This document shows positions 25,212 through 49,315 of a stretch of 52,992 bases of DNA, one piece after another. The stretch covers positions 1 through 52,992 of the forward strand of contig JAPVWO010000269.1 of the NCBI GenBank assembly GCA_027493375.1. The letters are read 5' to 3'. Within the stretch, counting starts at the first letter, position 1, and each line of letters opens with the position of its first letter. The notes under the pieces were generated by a model that was not told where the DNA came from, did no database searches, and worked only from the letters and a program-made list of their open reading frames with translations. The position numbers were made by a program, and so were the translations under genes. The stretch comes from Candidatus Multivorans thiocomprendens. Lineage in GTDB: Bacteria > Acidobacteriota > Thermoanaerobaculia > Multivoradales > Multivoraceae.

Positions 25212-25847
25212 GTGACTGAAATCAACGTGGCCGAACTCGAACCGGTAGGAGAGTTCGGTTCTCTCGCGTGGTGCGAGGCCTGCGCCGAGTACGGCGTGCA
25301 ACTCCTCGAAGACGGCGATCTGCCGCCGGACACCGCGTGGGGATTCACCGAGATCTACACCCACCCGCCGGCGCGGCTGCTCGATAACGGCCGCGAGATG
25401 TCGGCGTACTTCATCATGGTCAAGGACGGCCGGATCACCGGCGGCGACGGCGCTCCCGAGGAGTGCCGTGCCCTGCCGGGCTTCCACGTCGTGATGCCGT
25501 GGGCGTCGATCTGCAACCAGTCCCGCACGAAGTACGGCCGCGAGGGCCAGATGCGGCGGTCGGCCCAGGAGAAGGTCATGTTCCAGCAGATCGAGGAGTA
25601 CGTCGGGCGGCCGAATCCCCTCGGCCTGGGCGGCGGCCCCAAGCACGTCTGGCCCCGGGAAGTCGGCATGGCGCTGGGCAAGGGCATGGAAGAAGGCGGT
25701 GGTCTCCACAACATCGCCGCGAGCCTGCAGATGCCCTCGCCCGAGTTCGCGGACCTTCCCACGACCGACATGGCCGTCCCGGACTTCGAGGCGATGATGG
25801 ACGAGCAGAAACGTCGCTTCCTCGCGCTCCTCGCCGTCAGGGATTAG
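25212..25847 (+). CDS. Unrecognised protein divergent from tetR (211 aa)
   Basis: I do not recognise the family. No signal peptide or membrane segment is seen. Notable strings are LAWCEACAEYGVQLLE near the N-terminus (two Cys spaced three apart), WGFTEIYTHPPARLL, MSAYFIMVKDG, a central VVMPWASICNQSRTKYG, and a C-terminal helical tail ending FEAMMDEQKRRFLALL. The composition is that of a globular soluble protein. The GTG at 25212 has GGGGAG 8-9 bases upstream and keeps the sequence clear of the tetR promoter; an earlier ATG at 25161 would lie in the control region. It ends by overlapping the convergent VWFA gene by 11 bases. Divergence from tetR suggests it is controlled with the sugar operon. 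Confidence 0.7.
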   Translation: MTEINVAELEPVGEFGSLAWCEACAEYGVQLLEDGDLPPDTAWGFTEIYTHPPARLLDNGREMSAYFIMVKDGRITGGDGAPEECRALPGFHVVMPWASICNQSRTKYGREGQMRRSAQEKVMFQQIEEYVGRPNPLGLGGGPKHVWPREVGMALGKGMEEGGGLHNIAASLQMPSPEFADLPTTDMAVPDFEAMMDEQKRRFLALLAVRD

Positions 25848-28431
25848 CGTCCAGCGAGAACCGCACCGCCGTCCGGTACGTAGCCCCCACCGGCTCGCCG
25901 TCCTCCACGACCGGCCGAAAGACGGCCCGCCGCATCGCCGCGACGGCGTTCTCGGTCAGTCCATGCGGCAAACTCTCCAGCACCTCGACAGCGACGACGC
26001 AACCTTCCTCGTCGATGCGGACGCCGAGGCCAACCACGCCCTCGACGCCGGCCTGTATCGCTTCGTCCGTGTACTCGTGGGCGACCCGGTAGATCATCTC
26101 GCCCGGCCTGCGGTCTGAGTCGCCGACGGCGTCCGCCCGCGGGCTCGTGGCCTCCTCCCCTGCCACCCCCCGCGAGTGACAGACGAGGATCCGCGCCCGG
26201 TCCGGGACCGGCCCTTCCGGCGACATGACCAGGATGCCTCTCGCCTCGGCGACGCCTGCTTCCGGGCGGCCCGAGTCCACCAGCAGCCGCGCGAGGCTGT
26301 AGCGCGGCGCCACGGACGCCTCGTCGTCCATGACGGCGATCACCCGGCGAAAGGCGTCCTCGGCCTCGAGCACATCCTGCTCCGTGCGGCCAGGCTTGTC
26401 GAAGAGGGCCACGCCGAGCGCGTTGTACGCACGTGTCCGCAAGCGGATGTCATCGGTCAGTTCCAGCGCCCGGCGGGCGGCGTTGGCCATCGCTTCGAGC
26501 TCGGACCGCTGGTAGTGGGCCGCCGCCTCGGCGAGCCACTGTTCGGCGGTGTCCGGCGGGGACGGTGCCTCGGTGGCTGCGTTCGTGGCGCCTGACGAAG
26601 AGACGACGCTTCTGGCGTCGGGTGCCGTTGCGGCGGCCGGGCCACTGGCCGCGTCCAGGTCGAACGTGACGACGGAGGTCGTGGCGGCAAGATCGTCGCG
26701 CACGCCAACCGCGACGCGATGCGGCCCGGGCGCGGTAACCACGTCGACCGCGAACGGCCACGAGAGTTCCCGTGCGTCCTCGATCTCCCCCTCCTGCACC
26801 AGGACAGGGACGGGATGCTCCGTCACTTCGGAAAGGCGCGCCTCCTCGTCCATCACCTGGACCCACAGGCGGACCCGGGCCTCGTGGCCGCCGGCCGCCG
26901 GGGCCAGCGTCAGCGGACCGATGGGGATCGCGACCAGCATCCTCGACTGGATGTCGCCGCTGTCCAGCTCGACCTGGCTGCCCGTGCCGCGGACGGGCGC
27001 GATGCGGACCCCCATCGGGTTCGCGGCCTCTTCCATCGCAAGGGCCGCCAGGGTCAGGTCCGCCATCTCGGCTGAGATCGACTTGTCGACATAGCTGTCG
27101 CGGTGGCGAAGCGTCAGGCGGCGGCGATAGCGCCGCTTCGCCTCGTCGGTCAGCTCGACTTCGATCCGGTGGGTGCCGCCCCTCTCGATGTGGGTCGCCG
27201 AGTAACCGAGCGAGTAGCGGTTCTGGAGGTCGCTCGCGATGCGGTCGAGGCCGCCCGCGAAGTTGCGGGTGTTGACGATCGCCCGGCCGCCGGTGCGATC
27301 GGCCAGACGGAGGAGCGGCTCCTCGAGATTGGCGGCGCGGGTGAACTCGATGCTGGTGGAGAAGCGGAGGTCGGCCGTGTTCATTCCGCTGACGCGCGCT
27401 CCCGCGGCGGCGACGCTGTGGAAGGTGACGCCGTTGGCGTTGGCGAGGGAGGCGAGCTCGTCGAATCGCCGGGAGAGGTCGTACTGGTAGGCCTCGAGGG
27501 AGGCGTTGGCGGCGTCGATGCCTCTTGTGTCGCGATACAGATCGACGTCTCGGAAGGGCGACTGGTTGGGGGTGCGCCACCGCCCGCGCCGATCGTCGAA
27601 CCTCTCCTCGAGCGCCCGGAACAGATCCTCCGCCGGCCGCATGGGCAGCCCGTTGCTGATGTACAGAATGGCCTTGCGCCCCGGCAGGCCCGCCATCGTC
27701 CGGATCGCGTTCTCCACGTTCACGATCGAGGCGTCGACCTCGCTCCTGATCATCGCGGCGAAGTCGCGGATCAGCTCCATCACCGCGCTGTAGCGGGGCG
27801 GAACCTCGTCGTCCCGGTTGAGTTCGCGAAGGATGTCCAGGCGCTGCGATTCGATGCGGTCGCGGCTGCCGACGACTCTCTCGATCTGGTTGGTTTCCTC
27901 GGCGACGCGCCAGGCCTCGGTCGTGAAGGGAAGCGCGACCTCGTACCGGCCCGAATCGTAGACGGCGAGCATCGCGCGGTCGTACGGGCTGAGCTGGACG
28001 CTCAGGAAGTTGCGCAGGAAGGGCAGCAAACGGTTGCGGTCCGTCGGCGTCAGGTTGTTGTTGTCGATGTAGACCATCAGGCTCAGCCGGTGCTCCGGCG
28101 GCGGCGGTTCGGCCGGGACGAAGCGGTCCAGGTCGCTCCGCCGGGGCCGGCGATCCCGGCGGGTGGGGGCTGATCGGTCCCGCGTGGCCGCGTCGAGGCC
28201 GTCCGTGAACTCGTAGAAGTTCGAGAGTTCCACCGGGCGACCGTCCTCCCGGACCTCGAAGTCGTCGGCGGTCAGGCCCGTCACCGGGTTGCCGTCGCGG
28301 TCGGTGACCCAGACGTCGACGTTGACGACGCGCACCTCGATCGTCTCGCCGAAGGTCTCGGGCGCGGGTTGCGCGGCGCCGCTACTCGAGCACAGCAGGA
28401 AGAGCGTTGCGACGGTGGCAGGACGTTTCAT
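25837..28431 (-). CDS. VWFA-related secreted protein with TPR-like repeats and C-terminal TonB_C domain
   Basis: An 864-residue exported protein (signal peptide about 1-20, SSSGAAQP). Residues about 25-75 resemble the VWFA-related Acidobacterial family opening (VRVVNVDVWVTDRDGNPVTGL, DFEVREDGRPV). A von Willebrand factor A-like domain follows with RLSLMVYIDNNNL in place of the classic D-x-S-x-S metal site, GRKAILYISNGLPMR and LQNRYSLGYSA. About 640-760 looks TPR-like (AEQWLAEAAAHYQRSELEAMANAARRALE). The last about 85 residues are a TonB C-terminal domain (GVEGVVGLGVRIDEEGCV, then AAMRRAVFRPVVEDGEPV). The ATG at 28431 starts a clean signal peptide; the open frame upstream is repeat DNA. The fusion implies a periplasmic protein able to contact receptor plugs. 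Confidence 0.85.
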   Translation of the reverse strand: MKRPATVATLFLLCSSSGAAQPAPETFGETIEVRVVNVDVWVTDRDGNPVTGLTADDFEVREDGRPVELSNFYEFTDGLDAATRDRSAPTRRDRRPRRSDLDRFVPAEPPPPEHRLSLMVYIDNNNLTPTDRNRLLPFLRNFLSVQLSPYDRAMLAVYDSGRYEVALPFTTEAWRVAEETNQIERVVGSRDRIESQRLDILRELNRDDEVPPRYSAVMELIRDFAAMIRSEVDASIVNVENAIRTMAGLPGRKAILYISNGLPMRPAEDLFRALEERFDDRRGRWRTPNQSPFRDVDLYRDTRGIDAANASLEAYQYDLSRRFDELASLANANGVTFHSVAAAGARVSGMNTADLRFSTSIEFTRAANLEEPLLRLADRTGGRAIVNTRNFAGGLDRIASDLQNRYSLGYSATHIERGGTHRIEVELTDEAKRRYRRRLTLRHRDSYVDKSISAEMADLTLAALAMEEAANPMGVRIAPVRGTGSQVELDSGDIQSRMLVAIPIGPLTLAPAAGGHEARVRLWVQVMDEEARLSEVTEHPVPVLVQEGEIEDARELSWPFAVDVVTAPGPHRVAVGVRDDLAATTSVVTFDLDAASGPAAATAPDARSVVSSSGATNAATEAPSPPDTAEQWLAEAAAHYQRSELEAMANAARRALELTDDIRLRTRAYNALGVALFDKPGRTEQDVLEAEDAFRRVIAVMDDEASVAPRYSLARLLVDSGRPEAGVAEARGILVMSPEGPVPDRARILVCHSRGVAGEEATSPRADAVGDSDRRPGEMIYRVAHEYTDEAIQAGVEGVVGLGVRIDEEGCVVAVEVLESLPHGLTENAVAAMRRAVFRPVVEDGEPVGATYRTAVRFSLDANP

Positions 28432-28460
28432 CCTCGGCAAAGCGTATCTCCGAGCGCACA

Positions 28461-28578
28461 GGCACCCTCGCCCGCAGGCCGCTACACACTGGGTGCGCCG
28501 GCGTCCCCGCCGGCAGGCCGTTACACACTGGGTGCGCCGGCGTCCTCGCCGGCATCCGGGCGCCGCCGCGGAGCGGCG
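28461..28578. repeat. Intergenic repeat: two 39-bp direct units plus palindromic element
   Basis: Two near-identical 39-base units begin at 28474 and 28513 (GCAGGCCG then TACACACTGGGTGCGCCGGCG), differing at two positions. Each contains the hairpin-forming CGCCGGCG...CGCCGGC. A partial related segment precedes them at 28461. The right end, 28552-28578, matches the reverse complement of 20443-20469 at 26 of 27 bases. The unit region from 28530 reappears inverted at 31429-31461. The array fills the gap between the kinase-like gene stop (28587) and the VWFA gene start. There are too few copies and no unique spacers, so it is not CRISPR. Confidence 0.8.
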
Positions 28579-28586
28579 AGCGCGAT

Positions 28587-31406
28587 TCAGCTGTCTTCGT
28601 GAAGCGTCACGACTCCCGCGTCGCCGTCGACGCTGATCTCCTGACCCGGCGCGACGCGCTGGGTGATCGTGCCCGTGCCGACCACCGCCGGAATGCCGTA
28701 CTCGCGCGCGACGATCGAGCCGTGGCCGAGGATGCCGCCGATATCGGTGACGAGCCCCGAGGCATGCGCGAACAGCGGCGTCCAGGCGGGGTTCGTCATC
28801 GGGCACACGAGAACGGAGCCGGACCGCATCCGGTCGAACTCCGGCGGCGACTTGATCAGGCTCGCCGGCGCGGTCACGGTGCCGGGGCTCACCGGCACGC
28901 CGCGCAGCGTCGGGCTGTTCGGGTCGTTCCTGGCCTGCGTCTCCTTGAAGGCGATCGACGGATGCTCGCTCGCCTCTTCCGGCACGGTGCCGGGCGGGTG
29001 CAGGCGCTTGCGCGCCTCGCGGAGTTCACGCCGTTCGGCGGCGAGCGCGCCCAGGTCGGGCCTCGCCTCGCCTCGCGCACGGGCCTCGATCGCCTCGCGG
29101 AGCTCGTCCGTGACGCAGAAGTAGACATCAGAGGAATGCCCGAACGTGCCGGCCTCCACCAGCCGCCGCCCCAGCTCGGCGGCCAGCGAGCGCAGCACGG
29201 GCCAGGAACTGCCGAGGTAGAACATCGTCTCCTCGCGGATCGGGTAGAAGAGGTACGTGAACCACAGACGGAAGCGGAACTGCCAGTACGCGAGGCCGTC
29301 GAGCAGCCCTTCGATCTCGGCAAGCGCCTTCTCCTTCTTGCGCCGCGCCTCGATGTCGTGCTGCTCCGGGCTGTAGTCCCGGTTGGCGACCATCGTCTTG
29401 AGCGTCGCGAAGAACGGGGTCGGATCCTCGCTCTGCGGCGGTTCGACGAAGTCGAGCGTGTAGCCCTGGTGCCCGAAGGTCCGGAGGTAGTCGTCGATCG
29501 CCTCCAGTGCGGGGCCGCTCGCCGGGTGCTCCTGGAGCGCGGCCATGAGCCGTGACGCCGGGGTCGTCATGACGAGTTCCCACAGCGACTCGTCGGCCCG
29601 GATGCGCTTCGCGATCTCGTAGATCGCGTCGTTCGCCTCCATCGTCTTCGACTTGAAGCCGCTGAGGAACTGGCCGCTCGTGAAGCGGTGGTCGGGCAGC
29701 GTCTCGCGCAGGAAGCACTGGAGCTGGTCGTCGGTCGATTTGGCGACGCCGAAGGTGTGCCCGGTGTCGTTCGACCAGTAGTCGCCCTCGGCCACGCCCA
29801 GGTCGACGATGCCCTGGAGCAGCGTCTCGTCGGAGGCCGTGGCCGGGTCGACTTCGCGCCACTCGGCGGTGATACGGACCAGGCGCGGCATCGTCTCTTC
29901 CCGCCACTTCCTGAGCACGCCCTCGTTCCACTGTGTGCGGTTGAAGGCGATGAAGGTCGGGTTCCCGCTCTCGGGCATGGTCACCCGCTGCGCCAGCGAC
30001 TCGCCGGGTTCGGCCGAGGCCGCCCAGGCGTCGAAGGCGCGGCGGTCCTCGTCGCCTAGCGCGTCCCGAAACAGCTTCAGGTCGTGCTCCGCCATCTCCA
30101 GGTTCTCCGCGGGGGAGTCCTTGCGCCGCTCGGCCATGGCGCGCTCCGCGGCCTCCATCTCGTCCTCGGTCGGCTTCCTGATCTCCGTGTTGTCGCCGTC
30201 CGGGAAGAGCATCCGCCAGTCGCCGCGCTGGTAGGCGAAGCCGTTCATCGTGACGAAGACCGGGCCACCGCCGACCATCATGCTCTTGCCGCCGCGGGCC
30301 TTCTCGAGACCGATCGTCAGGTAGAGCTCCTTGAACAGCGGGCAGATCGGGTCGGGCATGTTCTCGACGATCTGGCGGCGCGTCAGGATCCGGGCCGGAG
30401 GAGTCGGCACCCACTCGACCTCGATCGGCTGCGGCGGCAGGTTCGTGATCGGCCGCGACTGCAGCAGGTGGAGCCTGCCGCCGGAGATCGCCCACTCGAT
30501 GTCCTGTGGTACCCCGTCGAACCGCGCTTCGACCTCGATCCCCAGGTCGACGAGTTCGCGGATGGCGTCCGACGACAGGGACGAACGGCCGCGGTCGGCC
30601 TCGTCGACCTCCTCAAGACGCGTGCCCCGATCGCCGTCCTGGACGATCCGCTGTTCCTTCGTGCCGATGATCGTCTCCGTGGCCTCGCCGGTCGCGCGGT
30701 CGACCACCCAGGTGTCGGGCGTCACCTGGCCGCCGACCACCGCCTCGCCGAGGCCGAAGCTGGCGTTGACGATCGCCTCGGAGCGTTCGCCGGTCGCCGG
30801 ATTGGCGGTGAAGAGAATGCCCGAGACTTCCGACGGCACCATGACCTGCACGACGACCGCCATCGCCACCTTGCTCTGGTCGATGCCCATCTGGTGGCGG
30901 TAGGCGATCGCCCGCGGCGTCCAGAGCGATGCCCAGCAGTCGCGGACCGCCGCGACGACGGCGTCCTCGCCGCGCACGTTGAGGTAGGTGTCCTGCTGGC
31001 CGGCGAACGAAGCCTCGGGCAGGTCCTCGGCGTTGGCGGAGGAACGCACGGCCACCGGCGGGTTCGCGGGCTCCAGTCCGCGATAGGCGGTGGCGATCTC
31101 GGAGACGGCTAGGTCGGAGGGGGCGTGTGCCGCCAGGAGTTCCTGGATCGCCGCCGACGCCTTGTCGAAGGAGACGGCGCCGTTGACGAGTTCCGGCTTC
31201 GCCAGCGCGACGATCCGCTCCTGCAGGCCGTTCTCCGCGACGAAGGCCCGGTAGGCGGCCGTCGTGACGTGGAAGCCGCCCGGCACCGCGAACCCCGCGT
31301 TCGAGGCCCGCGCCAGCGAGCGGCCCTTGCCGCCCAGCAGGTCGAGGTCGTCGTCGCGGGTGTCGAGCGGGCGGACGAAGGCGGTTGTTGCTGCCGGCGG
31401 CGTCAT
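28587..31406 (-). CDS. PEP-synthase-like / rifampin-phosphotransferase-architecture dikinase
   Basis: A 939-residue enzyme with an N-terminal ATP-grasp half (about 1-330: LGGKGRSLARASNAGFAVPGGF, PVAVRSSANAEDLPEASFAGQQDTYLN, GILFTANPATGERSE, IEWAISGGRLHLLQSRPIT). A long central domain (about 335-855) follows, then a C-terminal phosphohistidine domain (GGILGHGSIVAREYGIPAVVG, His895). It lacks the PEP-binding TIM barrel that ends true PEP synthases. The order matches rifampin phosphotransferases, which pass ATP's beta phosphate via His to a small molecule bound by the central domain. The substrate here is unknown and antibiotic resistance is not implied. The ATG at 31406 is used because the open frame upstream is repeat DNA. 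Confidence 0.85.
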   Translation of the reverse strand: MTPPAATTAFVRPLDTRDDDLDLLGGKGRSLARASNAGFAVPGGFHVTTAAYRAFVAENGLQERIVALAKPELVNGAVSFDKASAAIQELLAAHAPSDLAVSEIATAYRGLEPANPPVAVRSSANAEDLPEASFAGQQDTYLNVRGEDAVVAAVRDCWASLWTPRAIAYRHQMGIDQSKVAMAVVVQVMVPSEVSGILFTANPATGERSEAIVNASFGLGEAVVGGQVTPDTWVVDRATGEATETIIGTKEQRIVQDGDRGTRLEEVDEADRGRSSLSSDAIRELVDLGIEVEARFDGVPQDIEWAISGGRLHLLQSRPITNLPPQPIEVEWVPTPPARILTRRQIVENMPDPICPLFKELYLTIGLEKARGGKSMMVGGGPVFVTMNGFAYQRGDWRMLFPDGDNTEIRKPTEDEMEAAERAMAERRKDSPAENLEMAEHDLKLFRDALGDEDRRAFDAWAASAEPGESLAQRVTMPESGNPTFIAFNRTQWNEGVLRKWREETMPRLVRITAEWREVDPATASDETLLQGIVDLGVAEGDYWSNDTGHTFGVAKSTDDQLQCFLRETLPDHRFTSGQFLSGFKSKTMEANDAIYEIAKRIRADESLWELVMTTPASRLMAALQEHPASGPALEAIDDYLRTFGHQGYTLDFVEPPQSEDPTPFFATLKTMVANRDYSPEQHDIEARRKKEKALAEIEGLLDGLAYWQFRFRLWFTYLFYPIREETMFYLGSSWPVLRSLAAELGRRLVEAGTFGHSSDVYFCVTDELREAIEARARGEARPDLGALAAERRELREARKRLHPPGTVPEEASEHPSIAFKETQARNDPNSPTLRGVPVSPGTVTAPASLIKSPPEFDRMRSGSVLVCPMTNPAWTPLFAHASGLVTDIGGILGHGSIVAREYGIPAVVGTGTITQRVAPGQEISVDGDAGVVTLHEDS

Positions 31407-33657: not shown

Positions 33658-36612
33658 TTACTTGCCGCCGGCTGACGGGCCCATTCCTCCGCCGAGACCG
33701 TACAGCGTCTTCCGGCCGCCGAGCCGGAAGCTGGCCATGACGCCGACTTCGCGCTGGTCGGTCAAGGAGCCGCGGATCACGCCGCTGCCGAAGCCGTAGC
33801 CTTCGTTCGGCCGCCACTGCTGCACCGCGATCTCGTCGAGGATGTTCTTGGCGAAGGCGTGGATCTGCAGGCCCTCGCGGGGCGTGAACCAGATCGCCCG
33901 CAGGTCAAGCCGGGTGTACTCGGGAATCTTGTACTTAGGCAGGTTGCTCACGTCGGTGTGCTTCTCGGTCGTGTGGCCGAGCGTGGCCAGAAAACGCAGG
34001 TTCGCCAGGTCGTAGATGGCCGTCAACGAGAACTTGTGCCTGGGTTGCAGAGGCATGCGGTTGCCGCCGAAGTTGGTCAGGCTGGCGACCTCTTCCGTGA
34101 ACGTGTTGCCCAACCGGTCCTGAAACTCGACTTCAACAGTCGGCGCGTCCGGGTCGCAGCAGTACGTGGTTTCGAAGTCTCCCATGGCCGAGTCGAGGTA
34201 GTTGTACCAGCCGCGGATCGTGAAGCGGTCGGTAGCCCGGAAGGCCGCGTTGAGCTCCAGCCCCGAGATCCAGCTTCCGTCGATCGTGTTCATCTCGCCC
34301 TCAAAGGCGCTCTGGCCGGGAACCCGCCGTTCGACCGGCAACAGGCGTTCGGAGTTGACCCAGTAGCCCTGGTAGTCGTTGTAGAAGACCGAGGCCTCCA
34401 GTTGCAGGCGGTTGTCGGCCAGCAGGCCCTTCCAGCCGCCTTCGTAGTTGATCAGTTCCTCCGAGTCGAAGGTGACCTCGTTCATGTTGCCGAAGCCGAC
34501 GAAGCCGCCGGGGCGGCCGCCCTTGGAAGCCCGGCCGTACCACATGCTGGCGGGGTTGGCCGAGTACTGGAAGCCCGCGTTCCAGGTGGTCTGGTTCCAC
34601 TCCGCGTCGTTCTTGCCCTCGAAGCCTTCCACCGAGGCGTTGCGGAAGATCCAGAGGTCGACCGCGAAGCCGAAGTTGATGCCGATCCGGACGTCGTTCT
34701 GGACGTGGGTCTTGATGTCCTGGTCGTGGCGGATGCCGCCGAACAGCGTCCACCTGTCGCCGACCTGGTACTCGACGTTCCCGTAGTAGGCCAGGGTCTC
34801 GAACCGCGAGTGGCCGTAAAAGTCGAGCCAGTGGCCGTTCATGTTGCCGTCGGAGAACGCGCCGATGGCGCCCGCGTTCGACCAGTCGAGGAGTTCACCG
34901 GGGCACGCCCAGACGCCGCCCTGGCCGGAGATGGCCGACGTGGTGCCGTGGTCGCTCAACAGGGGCAGCCCGAAGAACGGCAGCGACGCCTGGCAGGTCG
35001 CCAGGGTGTTCGTGTTGAACGCCGGGTTGGCGAAGTTGAAGAAGCGGGCGTCGTAGGGTTCGTCCCCGTCCCGCTGAAAACCGCCCAGAACGAACTGGAA
35101 GTTGCCCGCGAAGCTCGACGCCAGACGCACCTCGTGGGAGGTCTGCTCCGAGTAGCGGAAGTAGTTCGTCATCGTGTCGGCGAACGGGTAACCGTTCGCG
35201 TCGAGGAAGGGATTGTCGGGACCGCCGACGCGCGAGGTGCCGTCGGTGTCGGTCTGCGCGTTCTCCGTCGTTTCCCGATAGCCGCCCTTGTAGGAAAGGG
35301 ACAAACCCCGGCTGGGCCGGATGTTCAGATCGGCCACGGCCATCTGGAGTTCCGAGTCCTCGTTGCCGGGCGTGTTGTAGTCGACGACGTTGCGCAGGTC
35401 GTCGCCCGGACAGATGAGCTGGTTCGGATCACTGAGATCGCAGTCCCTGACCGACGGCGCCTGGTTCGCGGCGCCGAGGAAGGGATTGGGGAACAGGCAG
35501 GTCGGGTTGCCCTCCGGGTCGGTGCCTGTCAGCAGACATTCCGTGGTCACGTCGCGGCCGGTCAGTTCGACCGAGGTGCGGGGCGCGCCGCTGTCCTCGC
35601 GCCCGGCGTAGCGGAGGTTGAAGTCGACCGTCTCGCCGAGATAGCGGAGCTGCGGCGCCCAGTGGGTGTTATCCGGTTCGTCGTAGTCGCCGCCGGGGCC
35701 GATGTTGGGCTGCGCGCCCTCGCCCTGCCAGCTTCCGGCCGTCAACCGCCAGCTCACTCCGCTGTCGCCGATCGGCCCGCCGATGGCGAGGTCGCCGCGT
35801 TGCGACGCCTGGTCGGTGTACTCGGCCAGGGCGTTGACGTCGAACTGGGCGGTCGGCTTGATCGTGTTGAAGCTGATCGCCCCGGCGATCGCGGCGCGGC
35901 CGCCGGTGGTTCCCTGCGGGCCGCGCGCCACGTTCATGCTCTCGACGTCGAACAGGTTGCCGGGCTCGAGCGCATAGAGCTCGTCGGTGTAGATGCCGTC
36001 GACGTAGGTGGCGACCGCCGTGGCCTGGAAGAACTCCTGGTTCCGCTGCGAGCCGATGCCGCGCAGGTAGAGGTGGTTGCCGTGACCCGAATCGGGCGAC
36101 TGATGGCCGATCTGCAGGCCCGGCGTGAGCGCTTCGAGGTCGTTGTTGTTGTTCATCCCGAGCTCGACGACCATGCCCTCGTTGAAGCCGGTGACCGTCA
36201 TCGGCCGGCGTAGGACGTTCTCCTCGCCGATCTCGCCCTGGACGAAGATCTGCTCGACGACGGAGAGACCGAGCGCGAACTCGACGGAGGCCATGCCTCC
36301 CGAGACCTCGACCGCTTCGCTCGAGGAACGGAAGCCCTGGAGCGACGCCGTCGCCGTGTAGTCGCCGTCTTCCAGGCCGTCGATGCGGAAGGCGCCGGCG
36401 GCGTCGGTCTGCGTGCTCTTGCCGATGTCCTCGCCGTCGGCGTCCTGCAGGCTGACGGTGACGCCGGGCAGGGCGCCGCCTTCGCGGTCGTAGACCGTTC
36501 CGGAAACGCTGCCGTCCTGAGCCGCGGCAGGCAGGGCGAGTACCGCCATGGCCAGCAGGGTCAACCCAACCCGTCTCCGGGCCGGAGACTCATTCGGGTG
36601 GCTCTTCGTCAT
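33658..36612 (-). CDS. TonB-dependent receptor with N-terminal carboxypeptidase-regulatory domain
   Basis: A 984-residue outer-membrane receptor. The signal peptide (about 1-32, LALPAAAQDG) is followed by a regulatory beta-sandwich (about 33-115, GTVYDREGGALPGVTVSLQDADG), a plug (about 120-240, LEALTPGLQIGHQS, NHLYLRGIGSQRNQ, VATYVDGIYTDELYAL, VARGPQGTTGGRAAIAG) and a barrel. The plug strings resemble siderophore/B12-type plugs more than the Oar type at 8843. After the beta-signal-like VGVMASFRL the protein continues for about 20 Gly-rich residues, so it lacks the usual terminal Phe. The ATG at 36612 has GAGGAG upstream; the long upstream open frame is in a region with no other coding signs. 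A perfect terminator follows at 33628-33651. Ligand unknown. Confidence 0.92.
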   Translation of the reverse strand: MTKSHPNESPARRRVGLTLLAMAVLALPAAAQDGSVSGTVYDREGGALPGVTVSLQDADGEDIGKSTQTDAAGAFRIDGLEDGDYTATASLQGFRSSSEAVEVSGGMASVEFALGLSVVEQIFVQGEIGEENVLRRPMTVTGFNEGMVVELGMNNNNDLEALTPGLQIGHQSPDSGHGNHLYLRGIGSQRNQEFFQATAVATYVDGIYTDELYALEPGNLFDVESMNVARGPQGTTGGRAAIAGAISFNTIKPTAQFDVNALAEYTDQASQRGDLAIGGPIGDSGVSWRLTAGSWQGEGAQPNIGPGGDYDEPDNTHWAPQLRYLGETVDFNLRYAGREDSGAPRTSVELTGRDVTTECLLTGTDPEGNPTCLFPNPFLGAANQAPSVRDCDLSDPNQLICPGDDLRNVVDYNTPGNEDSELQMAVADLNIRPSRGLSLSYKGGYRETTENAQTDTDGTSRVGGPDNPFLDANGYPFADTMTNYFRYSEQTSHEVRLASSFAGNFQFVLGGFQRDGDEPYDARFFNFANPAFNTNTLATCQASLPFFGLPLLSDHGTTSAISGQGGVWACPGELLDWSNAGAIGAFSDGNMNGHWLDFYGHSRFETLAYYGNVEYQVGDRWTLFGGIRHDQDIKTHVQNDVRIGINFGFAVDLWIFRNASVEGFEGKNDAEWNQTTWNAGFQYSANPASMWYGRASKGGRPGGFVGFGNMNEVTFDSEELINYEGGWKGLLADNRLQLEASVFYNDYQGYWVNSERLLPVERRVPGQSAFEGEMNTIDGSWISGLELNAAFRATDRFTIRGWYNYLDSAMGDFETTYCCDPDAPTVEVEFQDRLGNTFTEEVASLTNFGGNRMPLQPRHKFSLTAIYDLANLRFLATLGHTTEKHTDVSNLPKYKIPEYTRLDLRAIWFTPREGLQIHAFAKNILDEIAVQQWRPNEGYGFGSGVIRGSLTDQREVGVMASFRLGGRKTLYGLGGGMGPSAGGK

Positions 36613-37091
36613 GAGGGTTCTCCTCGGCCGGCGAGGCCTCAGTTCCGAGTTGACGCCGCACGTCGAACCGCCACCATGGCGATCCAAAGGGACTCGCGAT
36701 ACGTCGTGAACTGTCAAGGGTACACGGAACATGTTACAGCGTTCCAATCCGCAGGCTCCCTTGGGGGGCGAACTCGCGGACTGGGCCGGCAGCGCGATCT
36801 TCGAACCGTTAGACCAAGCCACCCGCCCGTCATCGGACGCTGCGGATCGACCACCAGTGCAACCAGCGCGGGTCGCTGGGCAGAGAGGCGCGACCCGGGT
36901 CGTCGCGGCAGCCAGTGCGTTGAATCTGTGTCGATGCCCGAACGGCCGCATGGCGGGTGGCGATGTCCCGGTTCTAGGCTGATCACGGATCTGGAAGACA
37001 CCCCTGATCCTGCCCCGGTCTGTCCACGAAGACGGGCAACCCAAGTTCTGTAAGATCGCCCGCTTCTTCCACAGCTCTTGAGGAGATGTTG
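36613..37091. other. Long divergent intergenic region (479 bp)
   Basis: It separates the TonB receptor (36612, minus) from the small secreted-protein cluster (37092, plus). It holds the candidate motif at 36720-36741, which includes the perfect 8-bp palindrome AACATGTT (36728-36735), and a GAGGAG ribosome site at 37080-37085. TTGACA occurs on the minus strand just downstream of the motif, but without a good -10. No gene is supported, although several frames are open because of high GC. Confidence 0.5.
36720..36741 (-). promoter_or_regulatory. Candidate shared upstream motif (TonB receptor gene)
   Basis: GTACACGGAACATGTTACAG on the plus strand lies 108-129 bases upstream of the receptor start and contains the palindrome AACATGTT. 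Its last 15 bases align with 33354-33368 upstream of the cytochrome-like gene at 12 positions. GGAAC and GTTCC flank it as a 5-bp inverted repeat (36726-36730 with 36741-36745). Confidence 0.35.
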
Positions 37092-37848
37092 ATGCGATCC
37101 AGTTCACCCCCAATGCCCGCGCTGTTCCTGTTAGTCGCCATCTTCGCGGTCACGCCACTCGTGGGCCAAGCGGCATTTGAGGAGACACTGACCGGTGAAC
37201 TGGAGGTTCCGTTCAATCCGGCGATGCTCGACCCCGAGACGAGCATCGCCTACCTGGTGCACATCGCCGAGTTGCTGGACTGGCAGCAACCCCCAGAGAC
37301 GCTGTGGGAGATCGACATCCCAATCTCGATTGACCGGGCGGTGTACGAGCGGATGCGGGTCGCCCGCAACCCCGATGAGATCGAGTCGATCGAATCCGAA
37401 TCCCGCGTCCCAACCGGCAACCCTAGTGCACAGAATGTCGTGTACGTTGGTTCTTTCCGTTGCTCCGCTCGGGCGCACAACCCTCACCGGAGCCGCCAAA
37501 GCGGCACCGTGAAGGCAAAAGGTGATGGCTACTGCACGTACACGCCGCTCATCAACTGGCTGACGCCCCCGATCGTCTGGAGCTTCAAGATGGCCATGTC
37601 GAAGCCCGCAGCCCAGCAGATCTGGTACGCCACTCACCGGAAGTTCGAGCAGAATCCCGTGTGGGAGCAGGACTACGGGAACCTCGGCGGCGACGGCACG
37701 CAGGTAGACTCCGGGCAATGCACGAACGGTACCTACCAGCATACGGTCGACATTGATGTCTTCGTGCCCTTTCCGTGGAATCGTCGAGATCACTCAACCG
37801 CTAGTGGCCTATCGGGTTGCGGTCGGGGTGGTGACCACATGTCCGTAG
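37092..37848 (+). CDS. Unrecognised secreted protein, interrupted by a single-base frameshift
   Basis: About 250 residues with a clear signal peptide (ALFLLVAIFAVTPLVGQAAF). The mature part is unrecognised: ELEVPFNPAMLDPETSIAYLVHIAELL, a basic Cys-containing stretch (SFRCSARAHNPHRSRQSG), TVKAKGDGYCTYTP, then TNGTYQHTVDIDVFVPF. As written, the frame runs on into the next gene through implausible sequence. One base earlier or later at about 37768-37773, the frame gives RGIVEITQPLVAYRVAVGVV and a stop TAG at 37846-37848, a far better C-terminus. One extra C in CCCTTTCC is therefore suspected. The ATG at 37092 is preferred over 37086 because GAGGAG then sits 6 bases away. GC content is visibly lower than average here. 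Confidence 0.65.
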
Positions 37849-38267
37849 ACGAACAGAAGCTCCGCGAGATGCTCGTCGGGCTGACGAACACGAGCTGCGA
37901 GAACCTCTCGGTTTTGCTCCTGATCGCCCAGGAGGTCGATCTCGTGCTGCCCCACAGCGAGCACACGATGATTCGGATTCTGGAGGCCCAACGGACTCTC
38001 GCGCGTCAGACCTTCGGTCCCGACATCGAGTTCGACGCCAGCGTGGCGAAGCGTGTCGATCTGACCGACATCGCGGTCGATCGCGAGAAGCTCCGGCGGC
38101 TCTTGGATCGGATCACCGATCTTGAGAGCCGCAACCTCGCGCTCCTCCGGGCGGTAGCGGAGCGGACCGGGATGCGGAATCCGCTGGACACTGAGCTGGA
38201 CCGGCAGCTAGACGATCAGCGCCGCGCCCAACTGGAAGCGGTCTTCGGCGCCGAGTCGCCCGAATGA
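37839..38267 (+). CDS. Unrecognised protein with two copies of a 57-residue module (A)
   Basis: A 142-residue soluble, probably all-helical protein. Residues 4-60 and 81-137 are two copies of one 57-residue module that align without gaps to each other and to the two copies in the next gene. Shared positions include Asp1, Leu5-Arg6, Leu9, Asn19-Leu20 and Pro35, plus basic residues near 48-50 (for example DREKLRRLLDRITDLESRNL). A linker (KRVDLTDIAV) precedes the second copy. The internal ATG at 37839 is taken as the start because it begins just before module 1 and overlaps the corrected stop of the secreted protein by 10 bases. The stop overlaps the next start (ATGA). No family or function is recognised. 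Confidence 0.68.
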   Translation: MSVDEQKLREMLVGLTNTSCENLSVLLLIAQEVDLVLPHSEHTMIRILEAQRTLARQTFGPDIEFDASVAKRVDLTDIAVDREKLRRLLDRITDLESRNLALLRAVAERTGMRNPLDTELDRQLDDQRRAQLEAVFGAESPE

Positions 38268-38674
38268 CCAAGCGGCCGCTGACAGACGGCGATGCGCTGC
38301 GGAACTTGCTGACAGGGATCGTCAACGGCCAGTGCGAGACTTTCTCGTTCCTCGTGCGAGCCGCCACGAGTCTCGGCCTGACGGTACCGTACCGGAAGCA
38401 GCTGGGATACGAGATGCGGGGCCGGCGCCATCGTCTGATCGAGGAATCGGTCGGGCCACCCACCCGGATCGGCCACGTCGATCTTGAGTCGGCGGGCGTC
38501 GACCGCGAGGCTCTGCGCGACCTGCTGGCGGGCTTCGTCGATGTTGAGGCCCACAATCTCGATCTGCTGGTGGCGGTTGGTGCCGAGGCGGGGGTCAAGA
38601 CGCCCCACGATCCCGAGGACTTGCAAGTCCTGGTGGCAAACCGCCGCAGGCTGCTCGACAGGGCCCTTCGCTAG
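38264..38674 (+). CDS. Unrecognised protein with two copies of a 57-residue module (B)
   Basis: A 136-residue paralogue of the preceding protein. Modules occupy 8-64 (DGDALRNLLTGIVNGQ onward) and 80-136 (DREALRDLLAGFVDVE onward), with a 15-residue linker containing GHVDLESAGV that resembles the linker of protein A. All four modules in the pair keep Pro at position 35 and a Leu-Arg pair at 5-6. No signal peptide, membrane segment or catalytic motif is visible; the modules are predicted amphipathic helices. Translation is probably coupled to protein A through ATGA. The pair and the secreted protein before it form a compact three-gene cluster. I do not assign a function. Confidence 0.78.
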   Translation: MTKRPLTDGDALRNLLTGIVNGQCETFSFLVRAATSLGLTVPYRKQLGYEMRGRRHRLIEESVGPPTRIGHVDLESAGVDREALRDLLAGFVDVEAHNLDLLVAVGAEAGVKTPHDPEDLQVLVANRRRLLDRALR

Positions 38675-38707
38675 TGGACGTGCGTCCGGCGGTTTCCGAA
38701 CCCAGCG

Positions 38708-39964
38708 TTGGCTAGTCCGCCGCGAGTGAATCGCGCTCTATCCGGTTGGATCGCCGGCCTCCTGCTGGCGTGGCTTCTCGCCGCACCCCTGTCGGCCCAG
38801 CCGCCCGGCGCGGCGACGGACGCTCCGGCGGAGCTGATCGCCCGAATCGAGGCGCCGCGCGAGGCCGGGTCGAGCGACGACTCCGGCAAGAGCCTCGCGG
38901 AGCTGATGGAGACGCACGGCATCTCCGCGCTCAGCGTCGCCGTCGTCGAGGACTACCGGCTGCACTGGGCCAGGGCCTGGGGCGTGACGGACGAATCGAC
39001 CGGCGCGCCGGCCGACACGGACACCCTGTTCCAGGCCGCTTCGATCAGCAAGCCGGTCTCGGCGATGGCGGTGCTCCGGGCGGTCCAGGACGGGCTCTTC
39101 GACCTGGACGACGACATCAACTCGATCCTTCGGTCCTGGAAGCTCCGGGACGACGCCGAGTTGCTCGCCGAGACCCCGGTGACGCCGCGAATGCTGCTGA
39201 GCATGACGGCCGGCACGACGGTTTCGGGATTCCCCGGCTACAAGCCGGACGCAGAGCTGCCGACACTTCCCGAGGTCCTGGGGCGGAAGGACGAGGAAAC
39301 ACCGGCCAACACGGACCCGGTGGTCGTCGGCTGGCGGCCCGGCAGCCGCTACGAGTACTCGGGCGGCGGCTCGACCATCCTGCAGCTCGCCTTGAGCGAC
39401 GTTCAGGGCGAGCCATTCGAGGAGATCCTCCAGGAGACCGTCCTCGACCCGCTCGGCATGAGCCGAAGCTGCTTCTGCCAGCCGCTGCCCGAGGCACTCC
39501 ACGGCAACGCCGCGCGGGCGGGCGGGTCGACGACCGGGAGCGCCGCGAAGGACCGCGAGCCCCGCGCGCCCTGGCACGTCTACCCGGAGCTCTACGCCGC
39601 GGGCCTGTGGACGACGCCGACGGACCTCGCGAAGTTCCTGATCGAGGTCCAGTTCTCCCTGGAGGGTCGCTCGAACCGCATCCTCACGACCGGGTTCACC
39701 CGCAAGATGGTGACGCCCGGAGGCGTGGGCAACTACGCTCTCGGCTTCACCACCGGCGCCGACACTCCGCACCGCCCCGCGCCACCCGGAGAAGCGGACC
39801 GTTTCTTCGGACATACCGGCGGCAACTGGGGCTTCCGCGGGAACTTCGTCGGATCGCTCGAAGGAGGCAACGGCTATGTCATCCTGGCCAACAGCAGCGA
39901 AGCCAACCCGGTCATCTTCGTCGAGCTGCCGGCGCGCATCCGGGCCGCCTACGGGTGGGAGTAG
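38708..39964 (+). CDS. Serine hydrolase, beta-lactamase/class C PBP fold (exported)
   Basis: A 418-residue exported serine hydrolase of the beta-lactamase-like family. A signal peptide (about 10-32, WIAGLLLAWLLAAPLSAQ) precedes SISK at 112-115 (nucleophile Ser112 and Lys115), the Tyr motif YEYSGGG (about 219), and HTGGNWG near 365 in place of the KTG box. Such proteins act as esterases, D-amino-acid peptidases or penicillin-binding proteins; true beta-lactamase activity should not be assumed. The TTG at 38708 is the first possible start and a GTG at 38726 is an alternative. A second, unlike member of the same family begins inside its 3' end. Confidence 0.87.
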   Translation: MASPPRVNRALSGWIAGLLLAWLLAAPLSAQPPGAATDAPAELIARIEAPREAGSSDDSGKSLAELMETHGISALSVAVVEDYRLHWARAWGVTDESTGAPADTDTLFQAASISKPVSAMAVLRAVQDGLFDLDDDINSILRSWKLRDDAELLAETPVTPRMLLSMTAGTTVSGFPGYKPDAELPTLPEVLGRKDEETPANTDPVVVGWRPGSRYEYSGGGSTILQLALSDVQGEPFEEILQETVLDPLGMSRSCFCQPLPEALHGNAARAGGSTTGSAAKDREPRAPWHVYPELYAAGLWTTPTDLAKFLIEVQFSLEGRSNRILTTGFTRKMVTPGGVGNYALGFTTGADTPHRPAPPGEADRFFGHTGGNWGFRGNFVGSLEGGNGYVILANSSEANPVIFVELPARIRAAYGWE

Positions 39965-41108
39965 CGGTGTCGTCGCCGCGGTCCTCCTGACCCTCGCCTG
40001 CGCCGCGCCACCCTCCCCGGACGTGACCTCCGAGACCGAGCGACTCTTCCAGGCGCGCCTAGACGAACTCCGCGCGGAACTCGGCTTCATCGGCGCCACC
40101 GCCGCCTTCGTCCTCCCGGACGGCAGCGGAGGCGTCGCCGCCACCGGCTACGCCGATCCGGACAACGACCTGCCAATGACGCCCGAGCACCGCATGCCGG
40201 CCGGCAGCATCGGCAAGACGATCGCCGCGGCCACCGCGCTCAGCATGGTCAACGAGGGCCTCCTCGGCCTCGACGACCTGGCGTCGCGCTGGCTCGGCGA
40301 CGAACCGTGGTGGACCCGCCTGCCCAACCACGAGACGATGACCCTCCGCCATCTGCTCAGCCATTCGAGCGGGCTGACCGACCACGTCTACGACGAAGCC
40401 TGGCGCAGTGAGGCCCGGTCGCGCCGCGGCCCGGCCGGCGACCCCGACGCCTGGTTCGAGCCGCGAGAGCTGGTCCAGTACGTCCTCGACAAGGAGCCCC
40501 TGTTCCCGGCCGGCGAGGGGTACGCCTACACCGACACCGGCTACCTCGTCGCGGGCCTGATGTTGGAGGCCGCCTCCGGCGGCGCGTACTACGACGAGGC
40601 CCGGCGCCGCGTTCTCGACCGTCACGACCTCCCCCGCACGGTGGAGCAGATCGGCCGCACCTTCCCCGATCTCGCCCCCGGCCACGTCGGCGAGGACAAC
40701 CCGTTCTCGCTGCCGGCCAAGACCGCCGAGGGCGACGTGATGGCCTTCAGCCCGCAGACGGAGTGGACCGGCGGCGGCTACGTCTCCAACTCACGCGACC
40801 TGGCCCGCTGGGCCAAGATCCTCTACGAGGAGCGCGCCCTCGACGGACCGTACCTGGAGGAGATGCTGAACTCCGGCTACCGCGGCGAAGACGCCGGCGC
40901 GACCTACGGCCTTGGCGTCTACCGGGCCGACAGCCCGCACGGCGAACTCATCGGCCACGGCGGCTGGTTCCCCGGTTGGCGCTCCACGATGTACTACCAC
41001 CGGGACTCCGGCATCGCCGTCGCCGTCCAGTTCAACCAGAACGAACTCGACTTCCGAAACGAAGTCCGCGACGCCCTGCTGGCCCTCTTGCTGGAACGGC
41101 TTCCCTAG
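39876..41108 (+). CDS. Serine hydrolase, beta-lactamase-like (second copy, overlapping start)
   Basis: A serine hydrolase with SIGK at about 111-114, YTDTGY in place of YxN (about 218-223), and HGGWFPG near 365. It also has a lipoprotein-like segment VVAAVLLTLACAAPPS. The only in-frame start before this leader is the ATG at 39876, inside the previous gene (89-base overlap) but with GGAGG 9 bases upstream. The 30 residues before the hydrophobic segment are unusually Ser/Pro-rich for a leader. Either the genes truly overlap, or a small indel has displaced a later start. From about residue 34 onward the protein is normal. Its stop overlaps the stop of the convergent aminotransferase. Likely an envelope peptidase or esterase. 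Confidence 0.82.
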   Translation: MSSWPTAAKPTRSSSSSCRRASGPPTGGSSGVVAAVLLTLACAAPPSPDVTSETERLFQARLDELRAELGFIGATAAFVLPDGSGGVAATGYADPDNDLPMTPEHRMPAGSIGKTIAAATALSMVNEGLLGLDDLASRWLGDEPWWTRLPNHETMTLRHLLSHSSGLTDHVYDEAWRSEARSRRGPAGDPDAWFEPRELVQYVLDKEPLFPAGEGYAYTDTGYLVAGLMLEAASGGAYYDEARRRVLDRHDLPRTVEQIGRTFPDLAPGHVGEDNPFSLPAKTAEGDVMAFSPQTEWTGGGYVSNSRDLARWAKILYEERALDGPYLEEMLNSGYRGEDAGATYGLGVYRADSPHGELIGHGGWFPGWRSTMYYHRDSGIAVAVQFNQNELDFRNEVRDALLALLLERLP

Positions 41109-42475
41109 GCAGCCAGCACGTACGCCGCGGCGCCGTCGGCGGCTTCGAGGAAGCGGTCGATCTCCGCGTCGCCCATCGGCGTCGAGAGCGCGCCGAAGAG
41201 GCCGCGGGCGCCCATCAGCATGCCCCGGTTCAGCATCTCCCGGGCGATCTTCTGGATCTGCGGCGCGGCGGAACGGGCGGTGAACACGGCGCGGAAGTCC
41301 TTCGGCGGTTCGTTGCCCGGCACGACGGCGAAGAGCGAGCCGCGGCCGGTCGCGACGGCCTCGATGCCGTGCCGCCGCAACACTTCCTGCAGCCCGGCGC
41401 GGACCCGGTCGCCGAGCCGGTCGAACTCGGCGAAGACCTCCGGCGTCAGGCGCTTCATCGTCTCGTAGCCGGCGACCATTGTCACCGGGTTGCCGTTGTA
41501 GGTGCCGCCGTGGTGGACCAGCTCGCCGTCGCGATGGTCGAAGACCTTCATCACGTCCGCCTCGCCGGCCACCGCGCCGACCGGGAAGCCGCCGCCGATG
41601 ATCTTGCCGAGCGACACGAGGTCCGGCTCGATCCCGAATCGGTGGCAGGCGCCGCGGTAGTCGATGCGGAAGGAGAGCACCTCGTCCGCGATCAGCAGCG
41701 CGCCGCACTCCCGCGTCTTCGCCCGGATGGCCGCGACGAAGTCGGCCCTCGGCGGGATCAGGCCGAGCGCGGCGGGCAGGGGATCCATGACGACCGCCGC
41801 GAGGTCGTCCCGGTGCTCGTCGATCAGGGCGTTGCAGACCTCGATGTCGTTGAGCGGCAGCGTGACGACCTCGGTCTCGAGGCTCTTCGCCATGCTGGCT
41901 TCGAGCGTCGTCGCCGGCCGTTTCGACTCGCCCCAGTTCTTCGGACGCGAACTGTCGCTCGCCTGCGCGTAGTCGTAGATGCCGTGGTAACAGCCCTCGA
42001 ACTTCGCGATCTTGCCGCGGCCGGTCGCCGCCCGCGCGGCCCGGATTGCCAGCAGCACGCCTTCGCTGCCGGAGTTCGCGAAGCGGACCTGGTCGATGTA
42101 GGGAATGCGCTCCACCAGCAACTCGGCGAGGCGGATGTCCGTCTCGGTCGGCAGCGAGAATGCCGTGCCGCTCCCGATCACCCGGGCGACCGCTTCCGTC
42201 ACCGCGGGGTGCGAGTGCCCGAGGATCAGCGAGGTGTAGTTGTTGACGAAGTCGATGCGCTCCTGGCCTTCGACATCCGTGACGATGCAGCCGTGCCCCG
42301 AGGCCGCGTAGATCGGGTACGGGTCCATGACCAGCGTGTGGCGGCTGTTGCCGCCGGGCATGACGTCGAGGGCGCGCTCGTAGAGCGACCGCGAGGCCGA
42401 CTGCTCGCCGAGGTAGCGATCGGTGGAGCGGGGTTCGGCCGTCCTGGCGGCCACGGGTCTCGAAACGTCGTTCAC
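41105..42475 (-). CDS. Class III PLP aminotransferase, glutamate-1-semialdehyde-aminomutase-like
   Basis: A 456-residue PLP enzyme of fold type I. Marks are MPGGNSRH near 39-46, FVNNYTSLILGHSHP, FANSGSEGVLLAIRAAR (phosphate loop), FEGCYHGIYDYA, LIADEVLSF (Asp264) and SLGKIIGGGFPVGA, with Lys291 the Schiff-base lysine. Overall it resembles glutamate-1-semialdehyde 2,1-aminomutase, but no haem-synthesis genes adjoin it, and many homologues are omega-aminotransferases or sugar-acid-related enzymes, so hemL is not assigned. The first 22 residues are disordered-looking. GTG start. It is divergent from the oligopeptide transporter genes across 44 bases, which suggests handling of an imported amino compound. 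Confidence 0.88.
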   Translation of the reverse strand: MNDVSRPVAARTAEPRSTDRYLGEQSASRSLYERALDVMPGGNSRHTLVMDPYPIYAASGHGCIVTDVEGQERIDFVNNYTSLILGHSHPAVTEAVARVIGSGTAFSLPTETDIRLAELLVERIPYIDQVRFANSGSEGVLLAIRAARAATGRGKIAKFEGCYHGIYDYAQASDSSRPKNWGESKRPATTLEASMAKSLETEVVTLPLNDIEVCNALIDEHRDDLAAVVMDPLPAALGLIPPRADFVAAIRAKTRECGALLIADEVLSFRIDYRGACHRFGIEPDLVSLGKIIGGGFPVGAVAGEADVMKVFDHRDGELVHHGGTYNGNPVTMVAGYETMKRLTPEVFAEFDRLGDRVRAGLQEVLRRHGIEAVATGRGSLFAVVPGNEPPKDFRAVFTARSAAPQIQKIAREMLNRGMLMGARGLFGALSTPMGDAEIDRFLEAADGAAAYVLAA

Positions 42476-42519
42476 GGGGGCGACGAGTGTACTGCCCGGC
42501 TTCGCTATTGTGGCGAGCC

Positions 42520-47900: not shown

Positions 47901-49250
47901 ATGAAAGCCGCACCCTCGATCCTGATCGCCGCCGTCACCGTCGTCGGCGCGGACGCCGCCACGTTCGGGCAATCCGCCGCGCCGCCCTCGCTCGACCCCG
48001 CGCGCCAGTGGAACCAGTTCCGGGGTCCCACCGGTGACGGCCGCACCCCCGCGATCAATGTGCCGATCGTCTTCGGTGAAGGCCAACTCGTGCGCTGGAA
48101 GACGCCCATCCACGACGAGGGCTGGTCCTCTCCCGTGGTTTGGGGCGAGCAGGTCTGGGTGACGACCGCTCGCGAGGACGGCACCGAGTTGTTCGCGGTC
48201 GCGGTCGACCTGGAGAGCGGAGAGATCGTGCACGACATCAAGGTCTTCGACGTCGCCAACCCCCAGGTCGCCTGGGACGGCCACAACACCCACGCGACGC
48301 CGACGCCAGTGATCGAGGAAGGCCGCATCTACGTCCACTTCGGCAGCTACGGCACGGCGGCGCTCGACACGCGGACCGGCGAGAAGCTGTGGGAGAGGCG
48401 GGACTTGAACACCGACCACCGGGTGCGGCCGGCCTCGTCGCCCGTGCTCTCGGGCGACTCGCTGTTCCTCGCCTACGACGGCGTGGACCGGCAGTTCGCC
48501 GCGGCACTCGACACGCGCACCGGCGAGACCCTCTGGCTCCGGAACCGCGAGGTCGCGACCGATTTCGGGGAAAAGCTCCGCGCGCAGGGGATCACGGACA
48601 TCGAGAGCGTGCTGGCCGCGAAGCCGAACGACAACCGCAAGGCGTACGCCACCTCGACGCTGATCGAACACGAAGGCCAGCGGCAGCTCATCAGCCCGGC
48701 CTCGGAGGTCACGTTCGCCTACGACCCCGAAACCGGCGACGAACTGTGGCGCGTGGTCCACGAGGGCTGGGGGTGGAATCTGGCCTGTCGGCCCGTGTAC
48801 GCGCACGGCCTCGTCTACTTCACCCAGGGGGTCTCCCGTTTACTCGTGGCGGTGGACCCCGGCGGTTCCGGCGATGTCACCGACACGCACGTCGCCTGGA
48901 GCGAGTCGCGCGGCACTCCGGAGATCCCCTCGCCGATCATTGTGGACGACCTGCTCTACATGGTCTCCGACAAGGGCGGCGTGGTGACGGCTCTGGACGC
49001 GACGACGGGAGAGCGTGTGTGGCGGGCACGCCTCCCCTCCGGAGGCAACCACTGGGCCTCGCCCGTGGCCGCCGAGGGCCGGATCTACCTCACGAGCCGC
49101 GACGGCACGGTGTCGGTGATCTCGGCGTCGCGGGAGTTCGAGGTTCTGGCGGAGAACGAGTTCGACGAGAGTCTCACCGCGTCGCCCGCCGTCGTGGATG
49201 GCGCGATCATCCTGCGCTCCGAAGGACATCTGTACCGGATCTCGGGCTAG
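47901..49250 (+). CDS. Exported PQQ-type beta-propeller (PQQ-binding-like) protein
   Basis: A 449-residue exported protein. A signal peptide (MKAAPSILIAAVTVVGADAATFGQ) is followed by QWNQFRGPTGDGR, the usual opening of this family, and then repeated blades such as LFAVAVDLESGEIV, AALDTRTGEKLWER, AALDTRTGETLWLR, FAYDPETGDELWRV and VTALDATTGERVWRA. These are 7-8-blade quinoprotein-like repeats. Catalytic residues of true PQQ dehydrogenases are not evident, so a scaffold or outer-membrane-assembly-type role is equally possible. The ATG at 47901 has GGAG upstream at good distance; an ATG at 47886 overlaps the yejF stop and would add five residues. The gene follows the transporter operon directly and may be its last member. 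Confidence 0.87.
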   Translation: MKAAPSILIAAVTVVGADAATFGQSAAPPSLDPARQWNQFRGPTGDGRTPAINVPIVFGEGQLVRWKTPIHDEGWSSPVVWGEQVWVTTAREDGTELFAVAVDLESGEIVHDIKVFDVANPQVAWDGHNTHATPTPVIEEGRIYVHFGSYGTAALDTRTGEKLWERRDLNTDHRVRPASSPVLSGDSLFLAYDGVDRQFAAALDTRTGETLWLRNREVATDFGEKLRAQGITDIESVLAAKPNDNRKAYATSTLIEHEGQRQLISPASEVTFAYDPETGDELWRVVHEGWGWNLACRPVYAHGLVYFTQGVSRLLVAVDPGGSGDVTDTHVAWSESRGTPEIPSPIIVDDLLYMVSDKGGVVTALDATTGERVWRARLPSGGNHWASPVAAEGRIYLTSRDGTVSVISASREFEVLAENEFDESLTASPAVVDGAIILRSEGHLYRISG

Positions 49251-49315
49251 CGGGAACGTGGGAGCCCGGCGAACCGTGTCGGGTGGCCACGGCTCCCTGT
49301 AATCGGCCTGCAATC

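Follow-up and report, generated by a model that had tools for sequence, protein, structure and literature searches.

We conclude with a high degree of confidence that the 393-aa open reading frame found in the window (the whole stretch of 52,992 nucleotides of contig JAPVWO010000269.1 analysed here) consists of two neighbouring genes, which are read as one through one extra base in the assembled sequence. The long frame (37086-38267) is open without interruption in the ORF translation, its second in-frame ATG at 37092 being the start given in the first-pass annotation, and the 393-residue frame, the shifted-frame stop at 37848 and the 10-base overlap described there are all present in the sequence (Table 1). 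From 37774, the +1 frame reads RGIVEITQPLVAYRVAVGVVTTCP up to its stop, and the ATG of module protein 1 lies in the long frame. We propose that the region would comprise three short overlapping genes, a secreted cysteine protein followed by two tandem paralogous helical repeat proteins, and the overlapping stops and starts suggest that these genes may be translationally coupled. The ancestral secreted protein would extend from 37086 to 37848, with a length of about 253 aa. Taken literally, the long frame would lack the C-terminal ~24 residues of this protein, among them the fourth cysteine common to the homologue described below, and would run on across unrelated sequence into module protein 1, which has its own ATG and would be exported by such a fusion.

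Table 1. Coordinates of the features in the proposed gene layout (positions in the window).
Feature	Position	Strand	Evidence
Portion of the secreted protein gene read in the long (0) frame	37086-37769	+	30% identity with the G016 homologue (200 aligned columns)
Frame-change interval of one base, including CCCTTTCC at 37767-37774	37767-37797	+	Block spacing of 37 vs 36 bases; DNA alignment
Probable ancestral C-terminal part of the secreted protein, read in the +1 frame; carries conserved cysteine 4 and ends in TAG (37846-37848)	37774-37848	+	
Module protein 1, 142 aa, two repeats, 10-base overlap with the upstream stop	37839-38267	+	Low-confidence all-helical model
Module protein 2, 136 aa, two repeats, paralogue of module protein 1	38264-38674	+	4-base overlap with the end of the module protein 1 gene

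Homology and the frame of the tail

Of the 21 genus genomes searched, 19 were without the secreted gene and two matched, the window's own genome and that of Acidobacteria bacterium isolate COS1_bin_13 (hereafter G016; contig JAPOVF010000399.1, locus L020), which is thus the sole relative. The two secreted proteins have 60 identical positions among 200 aligned columns, the full alignment giving 32% identity, and they have the same C-terminal block; the G016 protein differs in being unfused, in its neighbourhood, in its signal peptide and in the lack of any module relative in its genome. The alignments with G016 show three conserved cysteines in the long-frame part of the window's product, whose N-terminus is signal-peptide-like when judged by eye, and we infer that the secreted protein is exported. 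With the tail read in the +1 frame four cysteines align, as against three in the long frame; the joining stretch of the long frame does have another cysteine, but it is without alignment to G016. The four conserved cysteines could form two disulfides.

The G016 protein ends in FVPWPYYTSASTPLVAYRGKSAWVESC followed by a stop, in the arrangement FVPWP-YYTSAST-PLVAYR...C, and the PLVAYR...C tail of the window sits in the +1 frame and not in the long frame. TTCGTGCC and CCGCT[A/C]GTGGC lie 37 bases apart in the window and 36 apart in G016, a difference that is not divisible by three. Within the 18 bases of the PLVAYR block, all four differences between the window and G016 fall at third positions of the +1 frame, for which the chance is 1 in 81 with randomly placed differences, and this suggests that until recently selection acted on the +1 frame at the protein level. 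The first-pass annotation had looked to a homologue ending near the corrected stop, and the G016 tail indeed matches the +1 frame; its claim of two genes and a one-base discrepancy is supported by this tail, by the spacing and by the third-position differences. The frame argument, as drawn from the sequences, stands on one homologue with a short matching tail.

An open +1 frame is by itself common, since it occurs in 7,384 of 11,730 segments of 21 codons taken from 25 other ORFs of the window (chosen mechanically, and possibly including antisense or broken ones). Codon usage backs the +1 frame weakly: it is ahead by 8.7 bits over 21 codons, which is equalled by 549 of the 7,384 open segments. 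As for CCCTTTCC, it has three copies in the window, and as many were reached in 12 of 100 shuffles. The tail match to G016, unlike the openness of the frame, goes beyond chance. Against the 23 residues that follow FVPW in G016, the score of the +1 peptide is 35, compared with 12 for the long frame and 17 for the third frame (the last obtained with stops masked). When the +1 peptide was shuffled 20,000 times, a score of 35 was reached once; nine of 25,678 overlapping six-frame stretches of the window, located in three places, also reached it, and the E value of the +1 peptide against the G016 tail is 0.001 for one comparison. It is homology that settles the frame question.

It could be supposed that the 393-aa frame encodes a real, working secreted fusion protein, as its openness throughout would allow, but we consider this scarcely credible. 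The sole homologue is unfused and has its conserved end in the other frame, no homologue with the same fused architecture being found; the joining stretch is unlike the homologue (the score of 12 given above); and a stand-alone tandem paralogue of the module exists. Read in frame, positions 37770-37838 contain four hydrophobic residues out of 23 (A, V, I, L, M, F, W), with three K/R against two D/E, plus two H, so that the low hydrophobic content previously reported for this stretch holds, while its description as basic applies only mildly. The 393-aa fusion is very probably not an evolved protein and would result from an ordinary one-base frameshift of two genes. The structure model of the shifted-frame secreted protein has a mean pLDDT of 35.9 and does not show the tail to be part of a fold.

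Position of the extra base and possible programmed frameshifting

The first-pass annotation had placed an extra C within CCCTTTCC, a position that is not established by the comparison. In the unshifted frame of the window, FVPFP aligns with FVPWP of G016, and the one-base gap in the DNA alignment is placed beyond CCCTTTCC. The extra base is not placeable in CCCTTTCC because G016 shares the proline that follows it in the unshifted frame. The data place the base within about 37767-37797 and lean to the later part of this interval; a place beyond CCCTTTCC, up to 37797, would fit at least as well.

The in-frame CCC-T at 37767 raises the question of a programmed +1 shift, in which some or most ribosomes would shift at CCC-U and two products would arise from one start. 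CCC-U is described in PMC7577736 as a slippery codon known to ease +1 frameshifts. The +1 frame is kept intact, and an in-frame CCC followed by TTT is rare in the 25 ORFs (2 of 12,280 codons), where TTT occurs 33 times and TTC 381 times. However, CCC-T as such is no rarity in frame (45 of 12,280), the case is a single instance picked after the fact, and the shift is not conserved in the homologue, given that G016 reads through in one frame with another codon at this place. We therefore regard programmed shifting as highly improbable. Its more specific form, in which the shift at CCC-UUU would decide whether the secreted protein is completed at 37848 or extended into an exported fusion with the helical repeat module, is slightly less probable still; if true, it would yield two exported forms from one start codon.

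Mutation or assembly error

The proposal of two genes joined by one extra base leaves two origins for that base. It could be an artefact of sequencing, of consensus building or of strain mixing, the cell then having two intact genes, and we give this somewhat less than an even chance. The displaced tail is undamaged and the draft genome consists of 339 contigs, both of which are in keeping with an artefact, whereas the site is not a long homopolymer and there is no sign of a high rate of single-base indels in the comparison with another genome of the genus, G019, a check that is blind to shifts near gene ends. In this comparison, G019 ORFs of 120 aa or longer, taken from 820,000 bases, were set against 697,420 bases of the window's genome, the window included, giving 114 gene matches (some of which may be antisense readings) over 122,154 aligned bases, with five flagged frame changes. 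One of these is due to a 19-base deletion that affects a receptor-like gene of the same window, and three others have net changes of -114, -66 and +9. The remaining one, with a net change of -1, was set aside as an antisense reading over another gene with a ribosomal protein S20-like start, and is no frameshift. No single-base frameshift thus stood up in the 114 matches and 122,154 bases, the check being blind near gene ends such as the one considered here; a single isolated error would be compatible with this outcome. In the reverse direction (G000 ORFs against G019 DNA, 23 genes, 30,891 bases) three changes were flagged, two of them being the receptor-like gene with its 19-base deletion and one the N-terminal part of the ORF at 25837-28806. 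When the genus genomes were searched at the DNA level for another allele or copy of 37000-38720, the window's own copy came up, together with matches of ~28-40 bases in four other genomes (five of 21 matching in all).

Error, the cause named in the first-pass annotation, is not established, and this sample of the assembly yielded no confirmed single-base frameshift. A recent mutation or a population variant, in a gene absent from 19 of 21 genus genomes, is at least as likely as a consensus error and is slightly favoured. The displaced tail is still intact, which indicates that the frame change is probably recent.

Module proteins

Module proteins 1 and 2 are 33% identical, and in their alignment the start of module protein 2 pairs with the start of module protein 1 at 37839. 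This backs the earlier warning that the long frame hides the true start of the module protein. Each protein contains two repeats of ~60 residues, and in the six comparisons among the four repeats the observed score was reached in none of 2,000 shuffles each. The structure model is all helix with a mean pLDDT of 52.8, which is of low confidence, and the module proteins may tentatively be predicted to be helical repeat proteins. Module relatives were found neither in the other 20 of the 21 genus genomes, G016 included, nor in the other 147 of 148 genomes of the class. Searches of Pfam, NCBIfam, PHROGs and PDB sequences gave no convincing match for the secreted or the module family. The best weak matches of a module protein or of the pair, Tautomerase (E 0.1) and phrog_8067 (E 0.032), were unconvincing, and for the match to a HisF chain among the PDB sequences (E 0.0031) no stretch passed alone.

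Distribution of the secreted protein and genomic surroundings

Counting the window's own genome, the secreted protein matched in two of 21 genomes of the genus, two of 72 of the order and one of the 396 phylum genomes that were sampled from a larger set. The class search gave three of 148 genomes, the third of which (G446) was dropped, having four stops and no family resemblance; the tail match in G000 in the class profile search is not independent, since the tail was already in the profile. At the family level, 14 matches were obtained in 10 of 24 genomes, 11 of which cover only the first 44 residues of the query, that is, the signal peptide, and were not counted as relatives; neither was a match in G004 over residues 6-93 at 35%. 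In the viral_contigs and plasmids sets no relative was found for either query, and genome_contigs returned one locus, the G016 contig itself.

A near-fixed signal peptide, MREALRG[A/T]LLSVLFF..LLIGGAP, was observed in 11 of 12 loci of the genus genomes (L006-L012, L014-L017) and in the G016 homologue (L020, 4989-5070); it is absent from the window's protein. The sequences behind it are mostly unlike each other, several being short and rich in glycine and alanine, and the pattern suggests a common leader attached to various small secreted proteins.

With regard to the wider neighbourhood, ~5.8 kb of the window are absent in G019, comprising the secreted gene, the module pair, two serine-hydrolase-like ORFs and one aminotransferase-like ORF (by eye). 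The flanking matches end 187 bases apart in G019, and on this basis 36.6-42.4 kb is extra DNA relative to G019. In the compared stretch (33658-42487), the TonB-receptor-like gene at 33658-36612 is inverted relative to G019. The receptor-like gene at 48140-51873 is 87% identical to a 973-aa ORF of G019, and its 19-base deletion, near 51271-51292, splits it into two overlapping ORFs. A promoter scan of 36600-38800 found none, and the same region contains two terminator-like sites, with 1.1 expected.

Discussion

The reading of two genes joined by one extra base is useful mainly as an annotation warning, as it would prevent a spurious secreted fusion of 393 aa from entering protein databases and would set the start of the repeat protein correctly. 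The case also illustrates that a single homologue can settle a frame question without reads. The +1 shifting at slippery proline codons presented in PMC7577736 resembles the present case in having an in-frame CCC-U at the place of the shift and in its +1 direction, and differs from it in that the G016 relative needs no shift.

Frameshifted genes and pseudogenes, including those due to gene-breaking indel errors in draft assemblies, form a known class. The region described here shares with them a one-base displacement, a homology that continues in the neighbouring frame and an intact, normal homologue elsewhere, namely in G016. Unlike usual frameshifted genes, the shift enters the frame of the next gene, and the resulting open frame is longer rather than shorter.
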